Source: a virus
Reading direction: 5' to 3' (one strand)
IMG/VR virus record: IMGVR_UViG_3300002231_001577
Location: 1 to 42,286 of that record
DNA length: 42,286 nt
Positions 3,483 to 19,244 of the stretch are shown here, piece by piece. The notes under the pieces are model-generated. The model was not told the origin of the DNA. It ran no database searches and saw only the letters and a list, made by a program, of their open reading frames with translations. The translations under genes were made by a program, and so were the position numbers. Every line of letters begins with the position of its first letter. The stretch's first letter is position 1.

Positions 3483-5421
3483 TTAGGCTACTGGCGGGGC
3501 TCCTGCAGGGGCGCCTTGTGCAGGGGGCGATTGCTGGCCCTGTACCTGACTTTCCAACTCTGCAATACGCTGCCTCAGCTTCCTACTCTGTCTTATGTCG
3601 CGTATTATAGCGCGACGGTTTGGCCAATCAAGTGCTTCAATCACATGAGGTAGCAAGTCTTGCCCTGCCTCCCCAGCATATTGAATCATGTTGGTCATGT
3701 CCTGCGCCAAGGCTTGCTTGTCCCTGGCCTGCATTGGGTGCACAGATACGCGGTATTTGTAGCGCCCCTCAAAAATGTTGTTCTTGAACTCAATAACTCC
3801 CTTCGCCTGAACTGCGCGCTTCGCATCATCAAGACTTTGAAACGTACCAGCTGCCTGAAGTGCATCAACTTCCTGTTGAAACTCTGGGTTGGGCTCTTGG
3901 ATTGTAATTTCACGGAATGGGGAATTGAGCTCTTTCTGTACTTTAGGATCGTTTAGGGCCTGCTGTACCAGTGGCGCCATGTTGGGATCTTCAAAATCTG
4001 TCACTCCCTCATCGTTCGATAGGTAGATAATTCTCCCAGCTTTGTAATACTGCTGCATGAGGTCAACCATCATTTCCCCAAGGACCTGCATAGCGGAATT
4101 GTTCATGCGAATCATCTCCCTCATTCTTCCCATGCTGGCCTCAAAGGCGGCCTTTACTGATCCTGGTCTTTGGCTGGCTGCGACTTGACCTGTGATCGCA
4201 TCCGTAATTCCAGAAGTTCTGCGTACATCTGCTTTCTTGCTTTCGAGGTGTTTGAATACATCACCGGATACGCTGGCTCCTTGTTCTGTTTTGATTGCTG
4301 TGTTGATATCCTCAGCTTCAACCTCAGTAAGAGACGCGGGAGCATTCGTGTACGTGTCAGTATCCACTGCGCCAGCGATAGCGTAGGTTTTTGGATTGCC
4401 CATAGACTTAATATTGTCCATAATAGCAGCCTCCAGCTCATTAACCTCAAGCTGTTGCAACTTAATTGGGCCAACAATCGAAGTCCCATAAAATTCCTCC
4501 ACGTTCTCAATACAATCGTATTTAACATATGGCCAGTCGCCTTCCTGACCCTTCGAATTTATACGGGTTTTTACGGTCTTCTAATTTCACTCTACCTGTG
4601 AATTTCACAACTCGCCCTCTCGGGTATTTCCTCATGCTCTTCTTAATATCTTTTTCGTCGGTTCCTGCCACGTCCTGCTCTACCATTGTAGAATCAATAA
4701 ACCAGACTTCCCACAGCCAAACAGACTGTGCATTTACTTCGTCTTTTCTGTCGTTGTGGTAGGCGTCATAGAGCTCGCGCCCAATATTTTGGCTGGAAGT
4801 TGCGCGCTTCAAGCGCTCATGCAGGTCAGGGTAGGTTTCAAGTAGCGTTGAAAGAGGAACTCTCTTTCTCTCAGCTACCCACCTAGCCTCATCCATATTG
4901 TCAGCAAATGGGTCAACAACCAGGTTTTGCGGTTTCACCACATCAGCTTGTATCTCTTTTTCTTTGGGGTCCCACCAAACTTTCCAAAATGCAGTGCCCT
5001 TCACCAGGCCATATCTCCACATCCTGGCGTTCTTTCTTTCAATTTCAAGATCATCAAATAAGAATCCAAGGTGGGATCCTATCATCTCAGCAACTTCCTG
5101 AGTGCCTCCCGCTCTTGGGTAGCAAAACGATTCTGGGGGCTGGTCGGTAACTACAGCGTGAATTGTCTCAACGGCCTCGTACACCATAGGCACAACGGGG
5201 AGTGAACGCCAAGTTGCGCGCTTACTTTGCTCTGTAGCGCTCCACATCTTGCCAAGGTAGAACTCATCGTTCTCCTGCCACTCATCCAACCATTCAGACA
5301 TACCATCCATGCCTATCTCAATCTGGCGATTTAGCCCAGCAATTAGGTCAGCATCAGCTCCTTGTTGCGCCGGAGAGTTTCCCACTTCTCCTGCAAAAGG
5401 GGCATCAAGTTTGCTGGTCAT
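3483..5421 (-). CDS. portal protein (one frame break)
   Basis: Dodecameric ring at the capsid vertex through which terminase pumps DNA and to which the tail attaches. The merged length is 645 residues, within the usual range for large P22-type portals. Conserved-looking regions are LNRQIEIGMDGMSEWLDEW followed by YLGKMWS near the N-terminus, PQNLVVDPFADNMDEARWV (crown/wing region), and SGITDAITGQ and QRPGSVKAAFE in the second half. The C-terminus is a Gln/Pro/Ala-rich tail after coiled coil. An extra G in the GGG run at 4549-4551 breaks the frame. Removing it joins KFEG to QEGDWPYVKYD, and 1939 minus 1 bases is exactly 646 codons. It lies downstream of the terminase and overlaps the preceding small gene by 17 bases. 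Confidence 0.88.
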
Positions 5422-5650
5422 ACTTAGCTTCTAGCCTTTTCTTTTTCTCTGAATGAGTCTCCATTTTCCTGGGAGAGGGTAGATTGTCAAGGGCTTTCTT
5501 CTCACTCGCTGCAATCTCTTGGGCTCTCTCGTTGGGCAAATGGGACCTTGCTTTCACAGAACGCGACTTCTTCAACACAGCCAAATCACGCTCCATCAAA
5601 GTAACGCGCTCAGTGAGCTCCAGTACCTTTTCAAGTAAAACGTTATCCAT
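5405..5650 (-). CDS. small coiled-coil protein between terminase and portal, 81 aa
   Basis: An 81-residue charged protein. Residues 3-28 form an amphipathic heptad pattern (LLEKVLELTERVTLMERDLA), followed by a Lys/Arg-rich tail. Its ATG overlaps the large terminase stop as TAATG and its stop lies inside the portal start, so it is tightly coupled to packaging genes. It could be a packaging accessory or a minor head protein. No family is recognised and no catalytic residue is evident. Confidence 0.65.
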   Translation of the reverse strand: MDNVLLEKVLELTERVTLMERDLAVLKKSRSVKARSHLPNERAQEIAASEKKALDNLPSPRKMETHSEKKKRLEAKYDQQT

Positions 5651-7230
5651 TATCTTCCAACTCCCGAACCTAATCCAGTGTTTAATTGTTTACGCCTGGC
5701 CTTCCTGGCGGCATTTGCTGCGGCTTGTACTTCATTTATAATAATCGTTCCCGGCCTTTTGTCCATAGCAAAATTTAGGGAGGCGTTTACGTACGCCCTA
5801 GATTTTGGGCTGCAGGCCCAGTAGCGTATGTTGTCCATCATCTCATCCTTCTCTTTCTTTGGCTGCCCAGAATTGTCCGGCTTCCAAGAATATAGGCTAA
5901 ATTCCTCCACAGTCTGCCTGCAATTGGCTGTCACGTAAAGAGTGGGTGCTCTGGTGTCATCAAAAAATAACATGCGCTTTATTGCGTTTATCCCTTTAGT
6001 TACTGTCTTTACACAGTTTTTACAGGCAATGCCATTGGCTCGAAACTCTTGAGATATGGATTTTCCGTCTGTCCTGGCGCGTTTGTTCCCTGAGTAATCA
6101 ATGATGTTTTCCACGATTTTGTGCTCATAGGAGATTGAGCGCCTCTTAATCCACTCCGCTACTTGAGACACAATCCCTTGCTCATTGAGCTCTTCAAATA
6201 TGATGGCCCTCCCATCTGGCATCCCAGCTACCCACAAAACAGCAATTGGTTTGGATTCGTGCGGGTCAATTATTCTCCAGACTTCCTTAGCTGTGTCCAG
6301 GCAAGTTTCCGTGAGCGGCGGAATCACATGCACTCCGCGATTGAATTTATCGTAAATCAATCCCTTTCGGATCTGCCAGGCACCATGCACACGCGCGTTG
6401 TACTCAACCTCATCTGCTTCGGTGATATCCTCCATCATGGAGTTTTTGGCTGCGTCTGTCATGAAGGTGTTGTCCTGCAGCGACATTTGCCACAGGCGGT
6501 ATTCTGAATCCGGCTTGTTTGCTTTCTCGTAAAGCGCTGTTTGCATCCAAGTGGTTCCCTCCAGGTTGGGGGTGGCAGTCATCCACAAATACAAACGCCC
6601 AGCCAACTTCTCATCCTGCTTGTAATCATCACCAGCTGGAACACGGGTTATCAACTCATTCCATTTCTTAGGCGTCGGGATACATTCCTCATCAATCCAT
6701 ATCCAATTGGCACGAACGCCCTGGTAGGTATCTCGTTTTGCTTTCGATGTTATGAACGTAATTGTTGATCCGTCTTTTCCATGAATAACACCTATAGCTT
6801 CGTCTTTAGCGTATACAATATTGGGTTGTCCGCTGCGTTTTTTAGCAATAGCATCGTCAGGCATATACTGGAGCAACTTGGATTGAGGACCACCAGGCAA
6901 CTTCTGCTGGTCCCTCGAAACCACCACAACAATGCCATGTGTAGGCCCCACCACAGAATTAACCCAAGGTTTATAAGGGTGGCTTTTCGTGAACCAGAAG
7001 ATTGCTTCGGCGCAACCACATAAAGTTTTTCCGGAAGAATTAGCTCCAAGCGCGAAGCGTATACGAGCGTTTGAGGAGTGAAACTCCAGCTGTTTGGGGT
7101 GTGGTGTGTAAGCATATATGTTCCTCTTCCCGACTGCTCTGAGTTGCTTGTCGCGTACATCTTCCCTCTCCTTTAATTCTTCCTCAAGTTCTGCTTTCCT
7201 TCGTAGCAGCGCCTCTTTACTAACAGTCAA
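5650..7230 (-). CDS. terL: terminase large subunit (packaging ATPase-nuclease)
   Basis: Motor that cuts concatemeric DNA and drives it through the portal. Numbered from the TTG at 7230, the Walker A motif GANSSGKT is at residues 62-69. Walker B WIWIDEE ends at about 182, and the coupling motif TATPN is near 218-222. The C-terminal RNase H-like nuclease half has acidic positions in RIIDPHE and NIIDYSGN. Its length of about 526 residues is typical. I prefer the TTG at 7230 because AGGAGG at 7240-7245 sits 9 bases upstream. An in-frame TTG at 7263 has no such site. The start overlaps the end of the small subunit gene. The frame is intact. Confidence 0.93.
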   Translation of the reverse strand: MTVSKEALLRRKAELEEELKEREDVRDKQLRAVGKRNIYAYTPHPKQLEFHSSNARIRFALGANSSGKTLCGCAEAIFWFTKSHPYKPWVNSVVGPTHGIVVVVSRDQQKLPGGPQSKLLQYMPDDAIAKKRSGQPNIVYAKDEAIGVIHGKDGSTITFITSKAKRDTYQGVRANWIWIDEECIPTPKKWNELITRVPAGDDYKQDEKLAGRLYLWMTATPNLEGTTWMQTALYEKANKPDSEYRLWQMSLQDNTFMTDAAKNSMMEDITEADEVEYNARVHGAWQIRKGLIYDKFNRGVHVIPPLTETCLDTAKEVWRIIDPHESKPIAVLWVAGMPDGRAIIFEELNEQGIVSQVAEWIKRRSISYEHKIVENIIDYSGNKRARTDGKSISQEFRANGIACKNCVKTVTKGINAIKRMLFFDDTRAPTLYVTANCRQTVEEFSLYSWKPDNSGQPKKEKDEMMDNIRYWACSPKSRAYVNASLNFAMDKRPGTIIINEVQAAANAARKARRKQLNTGLGSGVGR

Positions 7231-7668
7231 TGCTCGGTTCCTCCTCGGCCAATTGAGCGTCAATCATAGCAAGCTCTTCCTCAGGAGTAGGTGCCGGAAG
7301 TCTCTGCGTCCAGCTCCCCTCCCTCCTCAGAATCTTTCTTGCCACCATACTTAGCTTCAATTCTATTCAGAGCAGAAGCGCCAGACAATAGGTTTTTGAC
7401 TATTGTTGTTTGGTGCCAACATCAAATTGTACCACATGTCCAGCAACTTCTCTGCTGTCTTAACGTCCTGTTTTTCAAGGCAAGTGTCGAGCGTTGTCTT
7501 TACGTAACGTGCAAACTGGTCAGGACCTATGCCCCAATCTTCCTTTACATTGTCAAGAAATTTAGTAACCAGCTTGTGCCTGGTGTCAGAGAGTTTGGCT
7601 TCTTGTTTGGCCTCTTTCGTGGCCATTCGTAGCATCTCGTCAATTGTCTTCGTTCGTTGCTCGCTCAT
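7220..7668 (-). CDS. terS: terminase small subunit candidate (two frame breaks)
   Basis: Likely DNA-recognition subunit of the packaging motor, inferred from its position immediately before the large subunit, size and helical content. The merged protein is 148 residues. It starts MSEQRTKTIDEMLRMATKE with a strong GGAGAGAGGA site. An extra A in the run at 7393-7397 and an extra T at 7298-7299 break the frame. Removing both gives a smooth C-terminus, SALNRIEAKYGGKKDSEEGG then ETPAPTPEEELAMIDAQLAE, ending at the TAG at 7220-7222, and 449 minus 2 bases is exactly 149 codons. The acidic C-terminus overlaps the TTG start of terL. The family is not directly recognised. Confidence 0.72.
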
Positions 7669-9872: not shown

Positions 9873-10568
9873 TTATCGGGCAGCTGGGGGTTGGGGAGCA
9901 ACTGGCGCAACGGGTGCTGCGGGTGCTGCGGGCGCGGCTGCTGGTGCTGCTGGTGCTGCTGGTGCTGCTGGTGCTGCTGGTGCTGCTGGTGCTGCTGGTG
10001 CTGCTGGTGCTGCGGGTGCTGCGGGTGCTGCGGGTGCTGCTGGAGTAGGTGCAGGCTGGCCTTGCTTCGCTGCAAAATATTCATTGACGATCTTATATGC
10101 GTCAATTGCTTGCAGTGGCGTTATCTCGTAGTTGGTGAAGTCCAACTCCGGTCTGGCCTTCTGCGGCTTGGTTGCGCTTATCACCTGAATGGGTATCCCA
10201 TCAAAAGCTCCGTCCAAAAATGCATCCACATACACAGGGTTTTCACGAATGTATTTATCATCTTGCCCCGCTATGTTGCAGATAATGCGCATGATCTTCC
10301 TTCGAGAAGAATCACTGTCTTTGTAGTAAAGGCCAAAGGGGGCCAACTCAATGCCAGCGTTAGCGGCATCCTGCGCCATCTTCTGCACTACCTCATTGTT
10401 TGAGGCGTTGCATACAAAGTCCATCACAACGGCTGGGCCACTGTGAGGAGTAATCTCTTTTACGGCTGCCAAGTAGCCGTGGTGTGTTCCGTCCATGCTC
10501 CGGTCGGATAAACGCTGACCCATGCCTCCTGCGGCTGTCTCGGTCTTTATCGAATCTCTCATTCCCAT
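9873..10568 (-). CDS. unknown replication-region protein with Ala-Ala-Pro repeat tail
   Basis: The product starts MGMRDSIKTETAAGGMGQRL. AGGAGA lies 6 bases upstream of the ATG at 10568, which is preferred over longer frames reaching back to 10655. The first 150 residues are globular (YLAAVKEITPHSGPAVVMDF; DDKYIRENPVYVDAFLDGAF), possibly an OB-like or nucleic-acid-associated domain. From about residue 170 it is a disordered tail of roughly 15 Ala-Ala-Pro units. The gene lies between the helicase and the polymerase with a clear promoter just upstream. The position and architecture (globular domain plus disordered tail) would suit a single-strand-binding or recombination mediator protein, but no family is recognised and this is inference. 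Confidence 0.72.
   Translation of the reverse strand: MGMRDSIKTETAAGGMGQRLSDRSMDGTHHGYLAAVKEITPHSGPAVVMDFVCNASNNEVVQKMAQDAANAGIELAPFGLYYKDSDSSRRKIMRIICNIAGQDDKYIRENPVYVDAFLDGAFDGIPIQVISATKPQKARPELDFTNYEITPLQAIDAYKIVNEYFAAKQGQPAPTPAAPAAPAAPAAPAAPAAPAAPAAPAAPAAPAAPAAAPAAPAAPVAPVAPQPPAAR
9913..10048. repeat. 9-base tandem repeat coding for Ala-Ala-Pro
   Basis: About 15 units of the 9-mer GGTGCTGCT (plus strand) with drift between GCT, GCG and GCC, in frame with the gene at 9873-10568. Such a repeat can gain or lose whole units without breaking the frame. Unit number may also be misassembled. Confidence 0.9.
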
Positions 10569-10627
10569 CTTTACTCTCCTTTGAAATTGAAGTTGAAATT
10601 GTAGGCGAAATTGCCTTGGGAAACTAT

Positions 10628-10655
10628 AGTATAATCTTGATAGTCTGGGTGTCAA
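10628..10655 (-). promoter_or_regulatory. sigma-70-type promoter
   Basis: On the minus strand, TTGACA (10655-10650) is followed by 16 bases and TATACT (10633-10628). It lies between the helicase stop at 10662 and the ATG at 10568, giving a leader of about 50 bases. Spacing and both boxes are the same as in the rightward early promoter at 19961-19988. Confidence 0.75.
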
Positions 10656-12789: not shown

Positions 12790-13244
12790 CCTTGTTTCCT
12801 CAAATAAAAGTCCCCTATCGCAATAGCGTCCAGGTAATCCTCAGGCCCAGACTTCTTGTCTATGTCGTACTTATCGCGAATCCTTTGGTGAATGACGCGC
12901 TTAGGCACGCCACCGTTCCACTCTGAAGGCGTATAAGTAACACATTCGCAACCCTTGAATCCATGCAGTTTGCATACCATAGAGAAGCAAACTGCATGTA
13001 AATCAAGTAGTTGCTGTTTCTGCATTCGTTCCCTTGATCCACGGTATGTTTGCACTTCTGCGACTATAGTTTCTATCCAATGGCCTGCAGGCATACTGTC
13101 GTACACTCTGCTGACCATCTCAATAATTGCGTCTGATCCCGTTATTCTACTGGGGACTTCAACATTGTAGTGCTCAACTAAGGTGCAGTCATTGAATATC
13201 GCTATTCCGGTGCAATGCATGGATGGATCAAGGGCGACAAGCAT
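12777..13244 (-). CDS. RuvC-like Holliday junction resolvase
   Basis: 155 residues with the RNase H fold layout of RuvC-type resolvases: ALDPSMHCTGIAIF (D6), IVAEVQ (E63), and a C-terminal acidic cluster GPEDYLDAIAIGDF (E135, D136, D139). These would coordinate two metal ions to cut branched DNA. Phages use such enzymes to resolve concatemers before packaging. The start ATG overlaps the preceding stop as TAATG. The frame is intact and the length is typical (RuvC about 170). Confidence 0.85.
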   Translation of the reverse strand: MLVALDPSMHCTGIAIFNDCTLVEHYNVEVPSRITGSDAIIEMVSRVYDSMPAGHWIETIVAEVQTYRGSRERMQKQQLLDLHAVCFSMVCKLHGFKGCECVTYTPSEWNGGVPKRVIHQRIRDKYDIDKKSGPEDYLDAIAIGDFYLRKQGWIA

Positions 13245-14251
13245 TATTTCAAACCTCTAATTACTGGGAATCCGATTCTCTCAAGCTCATCAACAACCAG
13301 GTTGTCCACTGGATCATTCCCGTTTGCTGAGATTAAGGAGTACTTACGGGCTTCAACTACTATCATACCAATCCTTCCAAGCATCTGCTTGACGGGCTCA
13401 TTATACTGGTGGCAACGTATATTTGGCAGCTTGTACTGTGCTGCTAGTTCTGCTTCAGCTGCAGCGTAGCATTCACTTAACGGCGATATAGGGCAGTTCT
13501 GTATGAAGCAATTCACTAAGATTGTAGTCTTTTCCTTCACCTGCTCATTCTGGGTGGGAGGAGCCACTGGCTGCTCTTTTACTGGGGGAGCCACTGGCGC
13601 GGCTGGTGGAGGAGTGGGAGCTGACTGCGCTGGGGGCTCAGGGACCACCAATTCATCGTCTACGTACACTTCGCCACCCTCAACTACCTCTACGTCCTCA
13701 GGTGGGGCAGGAGGGGCAGGAGGGGCAGGAGGCGCTACTGGTGCGGCAGGAGGCGCTACTGGTGGAGTGGGAGGCGCTACTGGTGGAGTGGGAGGGTTAG
13801 GCTGCACTGGCACCTCTTCACCTACGCTCTTTGCTGCTTCGGCTTCCATCTTCTGTAGTGCTGCTTCATAAAATTCGTGGAAAAGCTCCAGGTTGTTTGC
13901 GTCGCGCAACAGTGTTTCACGCTCTGCAGGGTAGGCTGTGCCCAGTGCTTTGAGGTTCTTCACCATCTGATAGCACTTTCTCGCCAGCTCTTTGCGGGTG
14001 TTCTTTCCTCCACCCTTCAAAACCTGATCCACGGTGGGTACGATTTGTACCTTCAATTCGTCGCGGCAAACATCTTCCATCTTCCTGTGGAGCATCTCCA
14101 CTTTGCGTTGGTAGTCTGCTGAGATATGTTCTTTCGCTGATAGACGGGTCTTGTCCCACTCTGCTTCGGTCACGCCAAGGTCAACTTCGTAAGCTGATAG
14201 GTCCAGCTCGGGGAAAGTTGCCTCAGGTTTAGGCACTGCGGCGGCAACCAT
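13244..14251 (-). CDS. unknown protein with Pro-Ala linker, 335 aa
   Basis: The N-terminal 145 residues are helical and charged (EAEWDKTRLSAKEHISADYQ; RKVEMLHRKMEDVCRDELKV). A long Pro/Ala/Val-rich disordered linker covers about 150-240, with PPTPPVAPPTPPVAPPAAP and an acidic insert EDVEVVEGGEVYVDDEL. A C-terminal globular domain (ILVNCFIQNCPISPL; NEPVKQMLGRIGMIVVEARK) follows. The gene sits between the Fe-S nuclease and the resolvase, so a DNA replication or recombination role is likely by context. No family is recognised. The ATG at 14251 lacks a strong ribosome site, so the start could be a few codons off. Confidence 0.7.
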   Translation of the reverse strand: MVAAAVPKPEATFPELDLSAYEVDLGVTEAEWDKTRLSAKEHISADYQRKVEMLHRKMEDVCRDELKVQIVPTVDQVLKGGGKNTRKELARKCYQMVKNLKALGTAYPAERETLLRDANNLELFHEFYEAALQKMEAEAAKSVGEEVPVQPNPPTPPVAPPTPPVAPPAAPVAPPAPPAPPAPPEDVEVVEGGEVYVDDELVVPEPPAQSAPTPPPAAPVAPPVKEQPVAPPTQNEQVKEKTTILVNCFIQNCPISPLSECYAAAEAELAAQYKLPNIRCHQYNEPVKQMLGRIGMIVVEARKYSLISANGNDPVDNLVVDELERIGFPVIRGLK

Positions 14252-15954: not shown

Positions 15955-16045
15955 TACAAGCCTTTATTTCTTGTTTACATAAAGGACACACCACTGTGCA
16001 ATTATCCTTCTCCTCCATTCTCGTTGAACATACTGGGCAAATCAT
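15947..16045 (-). CDS. 32-aa zinc-ribbon peptide
   Basis: MICPVCSTRMEEKDN then CPLCKQEIKAC: two CxxC pairs, the smallest complete zinc ribbon. The ATG overlaps the primase-helicase stop as ATGA, with GAGGAAG upstream. It probably binds zinc. The role is unknown but it fits the many zinc-ribbon proteins of this phage. Confidence 0.65.
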   Translation of the reverse strand: MICPVCSTRMEEKDNCTVVCPLCKQEIKACSA

Positions 16046-18302
16046 ACTTCCTCTCCATAAAGTCTAGCCTCAAGTTTTTCTAATTCCTCACGTCTTATCA
16101 GCTGCATGCGTATAGCGCTTCCCCCACCTTCTCTAACACGCTTGCGCTCAGTGTTCGGCATGGCGTGTCTTATTAATTTGGTTGCTTCGCTTCCGTCCCA
16201 CAATCCCTTTGTATAAGAATTGGTGTGCAGGTATTTCACCAGTTTGCTCGTGCTTATTCCTACTTCTTCCTGATTGGATATGGTGGTTTCATTGGAAACG
16301 ATAGAGCAATACTCAATCAATCCTGTCAAGAAGTTTCTATGCTCTGGTGATATGTTTAGCGTTTTCTTGTTTATGTATTTGTTTTCAAGAGGTGTCACGG
16401 CAATGCTTCCCTCAGCCTCTATCTCCCCCAAGCTCTTTCGTATATAGGCAACGTGCTCTGCAAACTGCCCATTCAACCATCCCTCTGTCTCTTTGAGAGG
16501 AATCCCCTCTAAGAATTTGACTTGGTCCTCACCAAAGTATATAGGCATCATTCTACGCATAAGTGCTCCCAGGTCTTCCTGGTCTGCCAATGGCAACTCT
16601 GGGGATCCTGCATTCTGTGTAGATAGAACGCGGTGGTACCCTTCAACTTTTGCCTCAGTCATTATACTTTCTGTTCACTTCTATTTACGTAGCTTGTCAC
16701 CAGCTTCTTTGTATTTTGTTTATGGTTGATTTGTTTGAAAATCGGTTTGCGGGAATCTGTTCGTCCATCAGCATCACTGGAGAATCCTCCCCAGCCAGTC
16801 TGAAAGTCGCCTCCGGTTATCGGGTTGAGTAGTGGTTGGCTGGTGAATAGAGTTCCTATCAACTGCGCCAGGAAAGTCTTTCCGGACTTGGCTACTCCAA
16901 ACATATGGAGCCACGGTAAGGCTTTTGTACAGTCGGTTGAGAAGTACAGGTACCTGCATATCCAGTCATAATCAATATCTAGTTGCTCTAGGAACTTGTG
17001 TATGTTCTCATGGTACTTTGGCTCTACCTGCTTTATGGCGTGATTTGCTTCATACACAAGCCTGCTCTCTGGGCAGTAGTAGTTCCCCTTAGTATCAGCT
17101 CCCAGGAACATTATGGTAGATTCTGGAGTGGCTCGGTACTTTGCTTTCAAATCACTATCAGCAAAAAAGTTGAAGCGTCCGTTCTCTTTGTCCTGGAAGC
17201 CTAGAATCTCTCTGGGCCAATAGGATTCAACCCAACCGGATTCTATGGCTGAGAGACAAACCTTGAACTCATTGCGCGTGGTGTCGAGTGGGTACAGCTT
17301 ACGCTCACCTCTCATCTCCGGGTCCTTGTCCAGAGTAATATAGTACCGGCCCCCGGTGCCAGGGGCCTCGACAAAGCATGGTACTATATTTTTGTCGCCT
17401 GGTGCTGCGCCAAATTGTCTGAGGTTAAGGACTGGCTTGTCTTTTTTCTCAAAGAGGTGAGTGTAGTATTGGTGTATGTGGGAGGTGTCGTCTTTCTGAA
17501 TCTCTTCATGAAGCTTGCTCCAGCGGATTGTTTCTTTCGCTTGGAAGTCATAGATCCCGTACCAATGTACCTTATAGTTTCCGGAATCAGAATCAAGGCG
17601 AAATGGGGAGTGAGGTGCGTGGCCTCCCAATGTCAAATCAAAAGTATTGAGGCCCCAGTCCCTCAATGCTATGTCCAGGTTATTAAGCTTGTATTCTTCG
17701 TCCTGGTATGATGGGGTTTCTGGGATCGCTTTGCGCTGGCGCTCGGTGTACTCTTCCTCAATAAACTCTATTGGTGAACCGTCTGGGCTGGCGCGGAAAG
17801 TTGCGAGCTGCGTTTCGGATGGGATATACATGAACCTTGCGGGGTCTATACATTGACTGTCGAAAGTAATGTAGGGGAAGTGGGCATTCAATGTTTTTAG
17901 GTAGCCACGCTTGTACGTTTCAACGTCCAGTACTTCTTTGTATAGTGGGAAATAGAGGCGTACCCTGGGCGCGTCCGGTGTTGAGCTGGGTGATTCAACT
18001 AACAAATATGCGTAGTTTTTTGATTCGAGGTCCTGTAGTAACTGGGCGTAAAGTGCTGAAGTGAAGTCGTGGTCAATGTCAGCATGTAGTAGTGTTGCGC
18101 CCTGGAAGTTTGCATTGCGGCGTTTGCTATCTGCGTAAACCCCTACGCAAATTGCTGTGAGCTGGGGTTTGGGTGTTGTGTGTGGGGTTCCGACAATCTC
18201 TTTTCTGTAAGCATCACAGAATGAGGGGAAGTCAATTGGCTGAGAAATTGGGTAGGCGTTGCCTAAATTGGCCGAATCAACGACCGAATATCGTATGCTC
18301 AT
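16042..18302 (-). CDS. primase-polymerase fused to SF3 helicase (three frame breaks)
   Basis: Priming and unwinding enzyme of replication, 753 residues after repair from ATG 18302 (an in-frame GTG at 18344 is possible). The N-terminal AEP-type primase has HADIDHD (D75, D77) and APRVRLYFPL, then DPARFMYIPS. The helicase has Walker A GVAKSGKT at 469-476, Walker B PVMLMDEQIP, then sensor-1 and arginine-finger region YHRVLSTQNAG and LMRRMMPIYF. Breaks are an extra G in the run at 16789-16792, a missing A at 16708-16710 and a missing base near 16660-16668. Walker B is only readable after the first repair. 2261 plus 1 net base equals 754 codons. The iteron array lies just upstream. Confidence 0.85.
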
Positions 18303-18346
18303 ATTAAAACTATTGCTAAAAGAGTTAAAAATTGGTGCCTCCACCA

Positions 18347-18442
18347 GCGCTCACAATTCGGTCCAGCTTGGAGGGGCTGGACCGAAAAGTCTCTTTTAGA
18401 TTATCCCGGCAAGGATACGATATTAGAAACTGCTGTGAGCGC
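18347..18442. repeat. inverted repeats in the primase-helicase leader
   Basis: An 11-bp hairpin with perfect arms (18357-18367 and 18376-18386, arm TTCGGTCCAGC, 8-base loop) lies inside a wider inverted pair GCGCTCACA (18347-18355) and TGTGAGCGC (18434-18442). They fall between the probable promoter at 18458-18485 and the gene start. An operator or an RNA leader structure controlling the primase-helicase gene is likely; no poly-U follows, so it is not a simple terminator. Confidence 0.65.
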
Positions 18443-18457
18443 AAGTCTCCGAGAGAT

Positions 18458-18485
18458 ATGGTATACAGGTCTCAGTGTGTGTCAA
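18458..18485 (-). promoter_or_regulatory. possible promoter for the primase-helicase gene
   Basis: Minus strand TTGACA (18485-18480) with 16 bases to TACCAT (18463-18458), 4 of 6 matches to the -10 consensus. A second TTGACA lies at 18498-18493. The spacing equals that of the other promoters here, but the -10 box is weak. Confidence 0.45.
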
Positions 18486-18545
18486 TACCCTTTGTCAAAT
18501 TTTTTCTTTTGGTGAGACAACTACAAAAAAAGTTGTAGCTCGGTG

Positions 18546-18836
18546 TGTACCACCGCTGTACCACCACCCGATGGTACAGATTTGATACCAGAAAACTCGG
18601 GTGATACCCTATTCTGTACCACGTGTACCACCGGAATTGACATTGTGACCGGCAGTGCTTACCATTACAGGTGTCAAGAATATTCAATATGTGCATATTC
18701 TTGACACCTGGTTCTTCAAAAATCTACAACATTATCAATTCCGGTGGTACACGTGGTACAGACACTATTGCACCGGGATTGATGGGGCAAATCTGTACCA
18801 CCCCCCCTGGTACAGTGGTGGTACAGCGGTGGTACA
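18546..18836. other. iteron array in nested palindrome, candidate replication origin
   Basis: Eleven copies of the 9-mer GGTGGTACA or close variants. Reverse orientation copies are at 18546, 18557, 18615, 18624 and 18794; forward copies are at 18570, 18743, 18752, 18806, 18817 and 18828. Pairs are spaced 9 or 11 bases. Three long inverted repeats share nearly one centre (about 18686-18691): 22 bp (18546-18567 with 18815-18836), 13 bp (18572-18584 with 18788-18800) and 27 bp (18614-18640 with 18735-18761). No gene is seen in 18345-18845. The position next to a primase-SF3 helicase suggests an origin bound by that protein. An operator cluster or partition site is the alternative. Confidence 0.7.
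18668..18710. repeat. 16-bp inverted repeat at the centre of the array
   Basis: Perfect arms CAGGTGTCAAGAATAT (18668-18683) and its complement (18695-18710) with an 11-base AT-rich loop. It forms the centre of the nested palindrome and could extrude as a cruciform or hairpin. Confidence 0.9.
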
Positions 18837-18845
18837 GTGCCATTC

Positions 18846-19244
18846 CTACAATAAATCTGAAATACTGCCAGAAGTTGTCTCAATCGCCTCCTCAACCGCA
18901 CTTTCAACCACCACTTTTGTTGATTTGGGTCCCACTTTTTTCTTCCTCATCGCCTTCCTCACCGCCACTTTCTTTTCAGGTTGAGTTGATTTGACCTCCC
19001 CCTTCTCTTCCACGGGCGCCGCTGTCTCGTAAGTTGATTCGTCCCTCACATCGTACACAGCACCACACCCTTTCTTCTTACAATTACCAGTAGGGAGTGA
19101 AACAGGTCCCCCATTCGGTTGAGCTGCAGTGAACATTGCTCTATTCTTAGGGTGCTTCTTCAGTACTAGCTCCCCACATTCCTTACAAAAGAGGTTGAAA
19201 CTGGCTGGCCCAGAGTTGAAATTGCCTCCACTAATGATATTCAT
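18846..19244 (-). CDS. zinc-ribbon protein with basic C-terminus, 132 aa
   Basis: First gene of the leftward unit. Residues about 20-65 contain FCKECGELVLKKH and then CKKKGCGAVYD, four Cys of a zinc ribbon. The rest is a low-complexity charged tail with KKVAVRKAMRKKKVGPKSTK, a likely nucleic-acid-binding segment, and an acidic end. A ribosome site AGGAGA lies 6 bases before the ATG and a TATAAT at 19276-19271 lies just upstream. It could be a transcription or replication regulator acting at the adjacent array; this is inference from position. Confidence 0.75.
   Translation of the reverse strand: MNIISGGNFNSGPASFNLFCKECGELVLKKHPKNRAMFTAAQPNGGPVSLPTGNCKKKGCGAVYDVRDESTYETAAPVEEKGEVKSTQPEKKVAVRKAMRKKKVGPKSTKVVVESAVEEAIETTSGSISDLL

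Follow-up and report, generated by a model that had tools for sequence, protein, structure and literature searches.

A nested mirror-image iteron array beside a phage primase-helicase gene as a probable replication origin

The viral DNA analysed here (the window; 42,286 bases, positions 1 to 42,286 of the IMG/VR record IMGVR_UViG_3300002231_001577) contains at 18546-18836 a mirror-symmetric array of short iterons, which is very probably a replication origin: the AEP-SF3 (DUF5906) primase-helicase encoded next to it would bind the iterons, each half of the array nucleating one hexamer. Several indirect observations give good support to recognition by the helicase that the phage itself encodes, among them the association of such arrays with DUF5906 helicases in other genomes. 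Binding, double-hexamer loading, bidirectional forks and autoregulation are inferred. The kind of origin is known from P4, SaPIs and PICIs; the one described here differs in its nested mirror form, the side of the gene on which it lies, the iteron word and the carrier.

Eleven TGTACCA/TGGTACA cores are present in the array, all inside one cluster of 291 bp, and only three further core matches (3964, 7428 and 20525) occur in the remainder of the 42,286-base window. The full 9-mer GGTGGTACA is exact in six of the eleven copies, the others being off by one or two bases (e.g. GATGGTACA at 18570, CGTGGTACA at 18615 and 18752, and CCTGGTACA at 18806-18814). The outer left arm (18546-18567, plus strand) holds two co-oriented TGTACCACC iterons, 18546 and 18557, 11 bp apart. 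It forms a perfect 22-bp inverted repeat with 18815-18836 in the outer right arm (18806-18837, minus strand), where three co-oriented TGGTACA copies (18808, 18819 and 18830) are likewise 11 bp apart. Further inwards, an opposed iteron on the left (18570-18584, minus strand; TGGTACA at 18572-18578) lies in one arm of a perfect 13-bp repeat (18572-18584/18788-18800), and its counterpart on the right (18788-18802, plus strand; TGTACCACC at 18794) in the other. The inner arms, 18613-18640 on the plus strand with an iteron pair at 18615 and 18624 and 18735-18762 on the minus strand with a TGGTACA pair at 18745 and 18754, each pair 9 bp apart, form a perfect repeat of 28 bp that extends to 34 bp at 94% identity. 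A fourth perfect repeat of 16 bp (18668-18683/18695-18710; 19 bp at 95%) lies in the middle of the array, and an outermost 10-bp repeat, TGAGACAACT (18513-18522, plus strand, with its partner at 18873-18882), has its centre in common with the others. The centres range from 18686 to 18697.5, with a common centre at about 18,689. The earlier note had described eleven copies, pairs phased by 9 or 11 bp, a central 16-bp palindrome and three repeats of 22, 13 and 27 bp around nearly one centre; all of this was found again, except that the third repeat measures 28 bp, and the outermost 10-bp pair comes in addition to its list.

The array is real and its coaxial palindromes lie far above chance. Summed, the coaxial perfect repeats amount to 89 bp, whereas the highest sum among 300 dinucleotide shuffles is 13; 400-bp tiles of the window free of array overlap likewise did not exceed 13. 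Nested inverted repeats around one centre also occur in protelomerase sites and some centromeres. By this resemblance the array could be a partition (centromere-like) or a recombination or telomere site, but we regard this as highly improbable, since no partition, protelomerase or resolvase gene was found among the ORFs searched with profiles, the linkage found is to the helicase and an 11-bp spacer interrupts the centre.

The central spacer (18633-18742), which contains the 16-bp hyphenated palindrome, is a candidate melting region. Its AT content is moderately enriched (63% compared to 53% in the window overall), and its weakest 50-mer belongs to the top 2.5%. Read as the reverse complement, the order and spacing of the iterons is >11>11>20<34>9>127<9<37>21<11<, where > and < give the orientation and the numbers the anchor-to-anchor distances of the iterons. 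The array sits in a stretch without credible genes (18345-18845) between a zinc-ribbon-like ORF (18846-19244) and the primase-helicase gene, both on the minus strand. The first possible start of the latter (GTG 18344) is 0.2 kb and the ATG at 18302 is 0.24 kb away from the array, in agreement with the 500-base gene-free stretch about 200 bases upstream of the gene reported before. Rfam and tRNA searches gave no matches. The earlier note had proposed to look for a GC-skew inflection at 18.7 kb; the minimum lies at about 20 kb and is uninformative, because the genes change strand at the same place.

The primase-helicase gene (18344-16042) is split over three frames in the contig. Its first part (16662-18344, minus strand) comprises an AEP-like primase, recognised by eye from HADID and later motifs, and a Walker A motif (GVAKSGKT), after which the frame is lost (break region 16665-16760). 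The N-terminal part has PHROG primase/helicase matches and no Pfam match; a Zn-ribbon/Toprim primase was not found there. The C-terminal part (16042-16662, minus strand) continues in another frame with the motif C region and a predicted winged helix (residues about 105-203). In the relative G001 (locus L005) the gene is frameshifted at other places (5636-5668 and near 6426), and because the two genes are broken at different positions, the frameshifts in both probably stem from indels introduced by assembly or sequencing. The C-terminal ORF of the relative (L005:6366-7307) combines Walker A, Walker B and motif C within a single frame and has a 42-bit Pfam match to DUF5906 (PF19263), while Pfam gave no Pox_D5 match for this helicase. 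The window's C-terminal ORF is 43% identical to it. In the window's own frameshifted gene the DUF5906 motif was not detected, and its assignment is taken over from G001. A winged helix of the order a-b-a-a-b-b-a was predicted for the window protein's final 100 residues (pLDDT about 80 in the domain, mean 58) with a model built from a two-sequence alignment. The structural matches listed for it are generic winged helices, without the P4 structure 1KA8 among them, and hhalign of the two-sequence C-terminal profile gave no match to either the Lentibacillus helicase (L222) or P4 alpha.

G001 (IMGVR_UViG_3300002231_000013, 40,389 bp), the only close relative found, is mostly syntenic with the window's 42 kb and keeps the zinc-ribbon ORF with about 50% identity. 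In the same intergenic slot, between this ORF and the primase-helicase gene, it carries eleven copies of a different word, TGTCCC[A/C], which departs from TGTACCA at the fourth base; the helicase parts are about 43-52% identical. The spacing in L005 is >8>11>30<37>8>167>29<8<38>, to be compared with the reverse-complement string of the window given above. Ten compact G001 copies follow the order > > > < > > | > < < >, compared to > > > < > > | < < > < < in the window in the same direction, and in the half adjoining the zinc-ribbon ORF the spacings are 8, 11, 30, 37 and 8 in G001 vs 11, 11, 20, 34 and 9 in the window. The G001 plan differs by the loss of the outer right arm and by one extra copy in the centre. 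Its spacer is more extreme than that of the window and holds the weakest 50-mer of the whole 40 kb. The two arrays were compared by the order of their elements, as a MAFFT alignment of the intergenic regions misplaces them. The array is nearly conserved, with a changed word, in the one relative; the check named in the earlier note, whether it is absent beside close homologues, thus found it present in the only one obtained. In both phages it lies 5' of the primase-helicase gene.

Further relatives were not obtained. Among 50,697 phage records, a DNA similarity search with the primase-helicase gave no match and a protein search one weak match. Viral contigs scanned with primase, C-terminal, DEAD-helicase and polymerase queries returned G001 only, the scan of bacterial and archaeal genomes no relative, and none of 29 contigs with related terminases matched the primase profile. 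In MW202816, the nearest by polymerase and DEAD helicase, the place of the primase-helicase is taken by a DnaB-like helicase that includes a primase domain. The outermost repeat also has a copy in L005, on the primase side: AGTTGTCTCA, an A-rich run and TTTGACAA are common to both phages there (L005 about 4761-4770). In the window the AGTTGTCTCA site at 18513-18522 is mirrored on the array's other side at 18873-18882; it is perhaps the site of a second protein. In G001, three tandem 42-bp repeats (L005 3392-3517) precede the zinc-ribbon ORF.

The word itself is more widespread and recurs in unrelated phages and prophages. In viral contigs, at least 119 stretches matched CTGTACCACNTGTACCAC, several of which are convergent arrays; many other matches were set aside because they are coding repeats, in frame and spaced at multiples of 9. 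Scans for the symmetric pattern gave three stretches in bacterial and archaeal genomes and eight in viral contigs. DUF5906 genes are followed immediately by convergent TGTACCA arrays in L157, L222 (Lentibacillus), L224 (a Thermotogaceae MAG) and L225-L231; in L207 the array comes 1.3 kb after such a gene. In L188 the array follows a gene matching PHROG DNA primase, and in L223 (a Methanosarcinaceae MAG, JAFGOO010000103.1) a DnaG-type primase with a P-loop precedes it by about 0.6 kb. L223 has a DUF5906 match on another contig than that of the array and was counted as negative; its array contig is binned as archaeal. Counted by lineage in our own grouping, and with several array contigs being fragments, DUF5906 was found on the same contig for 6 of 11 convergent arrays, whereas among 41 contigs whose matches were not convergent it occurred in 3 (p=0.0014). 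The earlier note had proposed to look for clusters upstream of related genes; convergent arrays do stand beside DUF5906 genes, but mostly 3' of the helicase. A nearly matching plan is that of the phage group L225-L231, closely related loci with Zn-ribbon/Toprim primases. Their array, >9>12>23<40>9>128<9<, is near the window's >11>11>20<34>9>127<9<, the word being identical and the half-module and centre nearly so, but it is situated 3' of the helicase.

The linkage also appears independently of the word. We drew 23 DUF5906 loci from 149 Bacillota genomes blind to any motif and examined flanks of up to 700 bp. Downstream, 6 of 23 flanks contained clusters of one 7-mer in both orientations at a level unreached in 60 shuffles, compared to none of 21 upstream (p=0.014). 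These counts refer to exact 7-mers and understate the true number of clusters. A Bacillota locus, L284, has a fully mirrored array of the word CTGCTAC (<9<12<19>47<9<103>9>47<19>12>9>), the nested plan of which resembles that of the window, whereas the word differs and the array lies 3' of the helicase.

Terminase small-subunit genes adjoin the convergent TGTACCA arrays in L118/L210, L127/L200 and L207, which could be expected if the terminase used the array as its packaging site (cos or pac). This seems very unlikely for the window, as its large terminase gene (5650-7263) is more than 11 kb away from the array, the G001 array likewise stays with the primase-helicase, and the arrays of L157, L222 and L224 follow directly behind the helicase. 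In L118/L210, L127/L200 and L207, origin and packaging site may be neighbours. The array of L127/L200 also adjoins a gene resembling, by eye, an HNH nuclease, and L231 encodes HNH, TerS-like and TerL proteins.

The DUF5906 helicases near TGTACCA arrays vary in their N-termini, which are of the Zn-ribbon/Toprim type, of the RepB type or without a detected domain. Because one word stands beside helicases with unrelated N-termini, recognition is most likely exerted by the C-terminal winged helix of the helicase and not by the primase domain. The earlier proposal of a P4-like origin recognised by its own primase is thus largely right as to the origin and the P4 analogy, while the recognising domain is probably another. 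Alternatively, the words might be start sites at which the AEP primase synthesises primers, the helicase recognising something else. AEP-type primases can favour particular start sequences, and priming by the SCCmec CCPol-MP maps to the iteron region (PMC7581432). We nevertheless consider this very unlikely, since some of the helicases beside the same word carry Toprim or lack any detectable primase domain, and since mirror polarity, 9-bp phasing and opposed copies are more readily explained by an array of bound protein than by dispersed sites of priming.

The origins of SV40 (T antigen) and papillomaviruses (E1) contain inverted sites and are associated with double hexamers. Both proteins are helicase initiators recognising their own origins (PMC7581432). 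Their recognition domain is N-terminal, unlike the C-terminal one proposed here. Nearer to the window is satellite phage P4. Its alpha protein comprises Zn_Ribbon_Prim, Toprim, D5_N, DUF5906 and Pox_D5 domains and thereby shares the SF3-type ATPase DUF5906 with the L005 helicase and with the Pri-Rep of the E. coli PICI EcCICFT073 (D5_N, DUF5906, Pox_D5). P4 iterons (TGTTCACC) are arranged <10<11<15>50<10< in ori1 and, with annotated variants, >9>50<18<7> in the crr repeat. Spacings of 9-11 bp and convergent copies 50 bp apart around AT-rich DNA resemble the window array, in which iterons are also paired and convergent around an AT-richer centre. The statement that a mirror-image arrangement is unlike P4 was therefore too general: the crr repeat is already convergent, and what P4 lacks is a nested full mirror in one place. 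Furthermore, the P4 type I iteron is GGTGAACA and the window word GGTGGTACA, the Zn-ribbon/Toprim primase fused to the SF3 helicase in alpha contrasts with an AEP-like N-terminal part, and the P4 origin is split into ori1 and crr about 5 kb apart, whereas the window has a single cluster. P4 alpha has a C-terminal origin-binding winged helix (Pox_D5; its last 100 residues are solved as 1KA8), compared to a predicted one with generic structural matches in the window. Equating P4 ori1 with half of the window array was abandoned once iteron polarity had been checked.

PICI origins consist of two iteron sets around an AT-rich region, were functionally tested and have been called unique to PICIs (PMC6092414), so that the word 'novel' used for the window's origin in the earlier note was too strong. 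In EcCICFT073, TGTCTACC iterons lie convergent around AT-rich DNA behind the DUF5906/Pox_D5 Rep, and this ori was tested via plasmid maintenance (PMC6092414). SaPI Rep reportedly appears to bind in the form of two hexamers (PMC7581432). The window resembles EcCICFT073 and SaPIbov1 in the two iteron sets flanking AT-rich DNA and the iteron pairs 9 bp apart. PICI initiators are SF3 helicases of the D5/DUF5906 type with a C-terminal DNA-binding domain; here, DUF5906 is found in L005 and the winged helix of the window is predicted with moderate confidence. The differences are that the word is TGTACCACC instead of TGTCTACC, that the halves are nested mirror images and that the array lies 5' of the initiator gene, whereas origins of the PICI/SaPI type follow immediately 3'. 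Moreover, PICIs are phage satellites without full virion genes, but the window, with large terminase and portal, represents a tailed phage.

For an origin of this kind, the C-terminal winged helix of the primase-helicase would bind the TGTACCACC iterons, and one mirror half, i.e. a co-oriented iteron run, one opposed iteron and then the 9-bp pair beside the centre, would nucleate one hexamer. Two hexamers placed face to face over the AT-richer centre could melt it and depart as two forks, with their AEP domains supplying the primers. Against the reading as an origin count the position of the array, 3' of the helicase in most relatives and 5' here, the terminase genes adjoining arrays in several other phages, the missing outer right arm in G001 and the only moderately AT-rich spacer of the window.

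Promoter-like sites occur in the central spacer (18637-18665, plus strand) and, weakly, between array and gene (18485-18458, minus strand; TTGACA, 16 nt, TACCAT), where L005 has a similar stretch, TATTGACA. Together with two HTH proteins encoded by the phage (22183-22683 and 24440-24826), they would suit an operator complex, in which cooperative binding of a phage repressor or activator to the words would control the primase-helicase operon, perhaps along with a second promoter in the array centre, while replication starts elsewhere. We consider this unlikely, if less so than the other alternatives: the promoter-like matches barely exceed expectation (5 vs 3.7 in the region), word and plan accompany DUF5906 helicases in unrelated phages mostly behind the gene, making control of the gene unlikely, and the homologous arrangement acts as ori in EcCICFT073 (PMC6092414). 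Operator and origin roles could coexist. Because a promoter-like site and a structured leader lie between array and gene, an initiator acting at this origin may also regulate its own synthesis.

Compared to the known origins of this kind, it is new that full-size tailed phages are the carriers, that the form is a nested mirror, that the array lies on the 5' side of the gene and that the word has changed. Searches of papers for the words gave unrelated sequences only, and phage origins of this type may have been reported before. In a general class, DUF5906/D5 helicases of tailed phages, prophages and satellites would start at nested dyad-symmetric iteron arrays with one hexamer per half, the word drifting along with the winged helix but spacing and polarity staying constant, with any primase and on either side of the gene; this generalisation may equally well hold or fail. 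If true, the PICI-type organisation (Fillol-Salom et al.) would also serve full-size tailed phages and prophages, which bears on the source of satellite replicons, and a sequence rule would be available for locating origins in unannotated phages. Two natural words (TGTACCA and TGTCCC[A/C]) with initiators 43-52% identical would make a recognition code testable, and the nested mirror would do the same for double-hexamer loading by SF3 initiators in a compact system. What makes the array interesting is chiefly how broad the class is and that the word has changed between two sister phages.

The leader of the primase-helicase transcript (window 18310-18400, minus strand; L005 4930-5010) is predicted to form an 11-12 bp hairpin inside a second stem in both phages. 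In the window this hairpin is at 18357-18386 (minus strand) with the loop CCCUCCAA. The letters differ between the two phages, with 7 of 11 pairs changed on both sides, and the loop of 8 nt contains CCUCC, which could pair with a downstream GGAGG resembling a ribosome-binding site. Two ORFs of the window's replication region (9873-10655 and 13244-14251) contain long Pro/Ala-rich repeats (PAAPAAPAAP).
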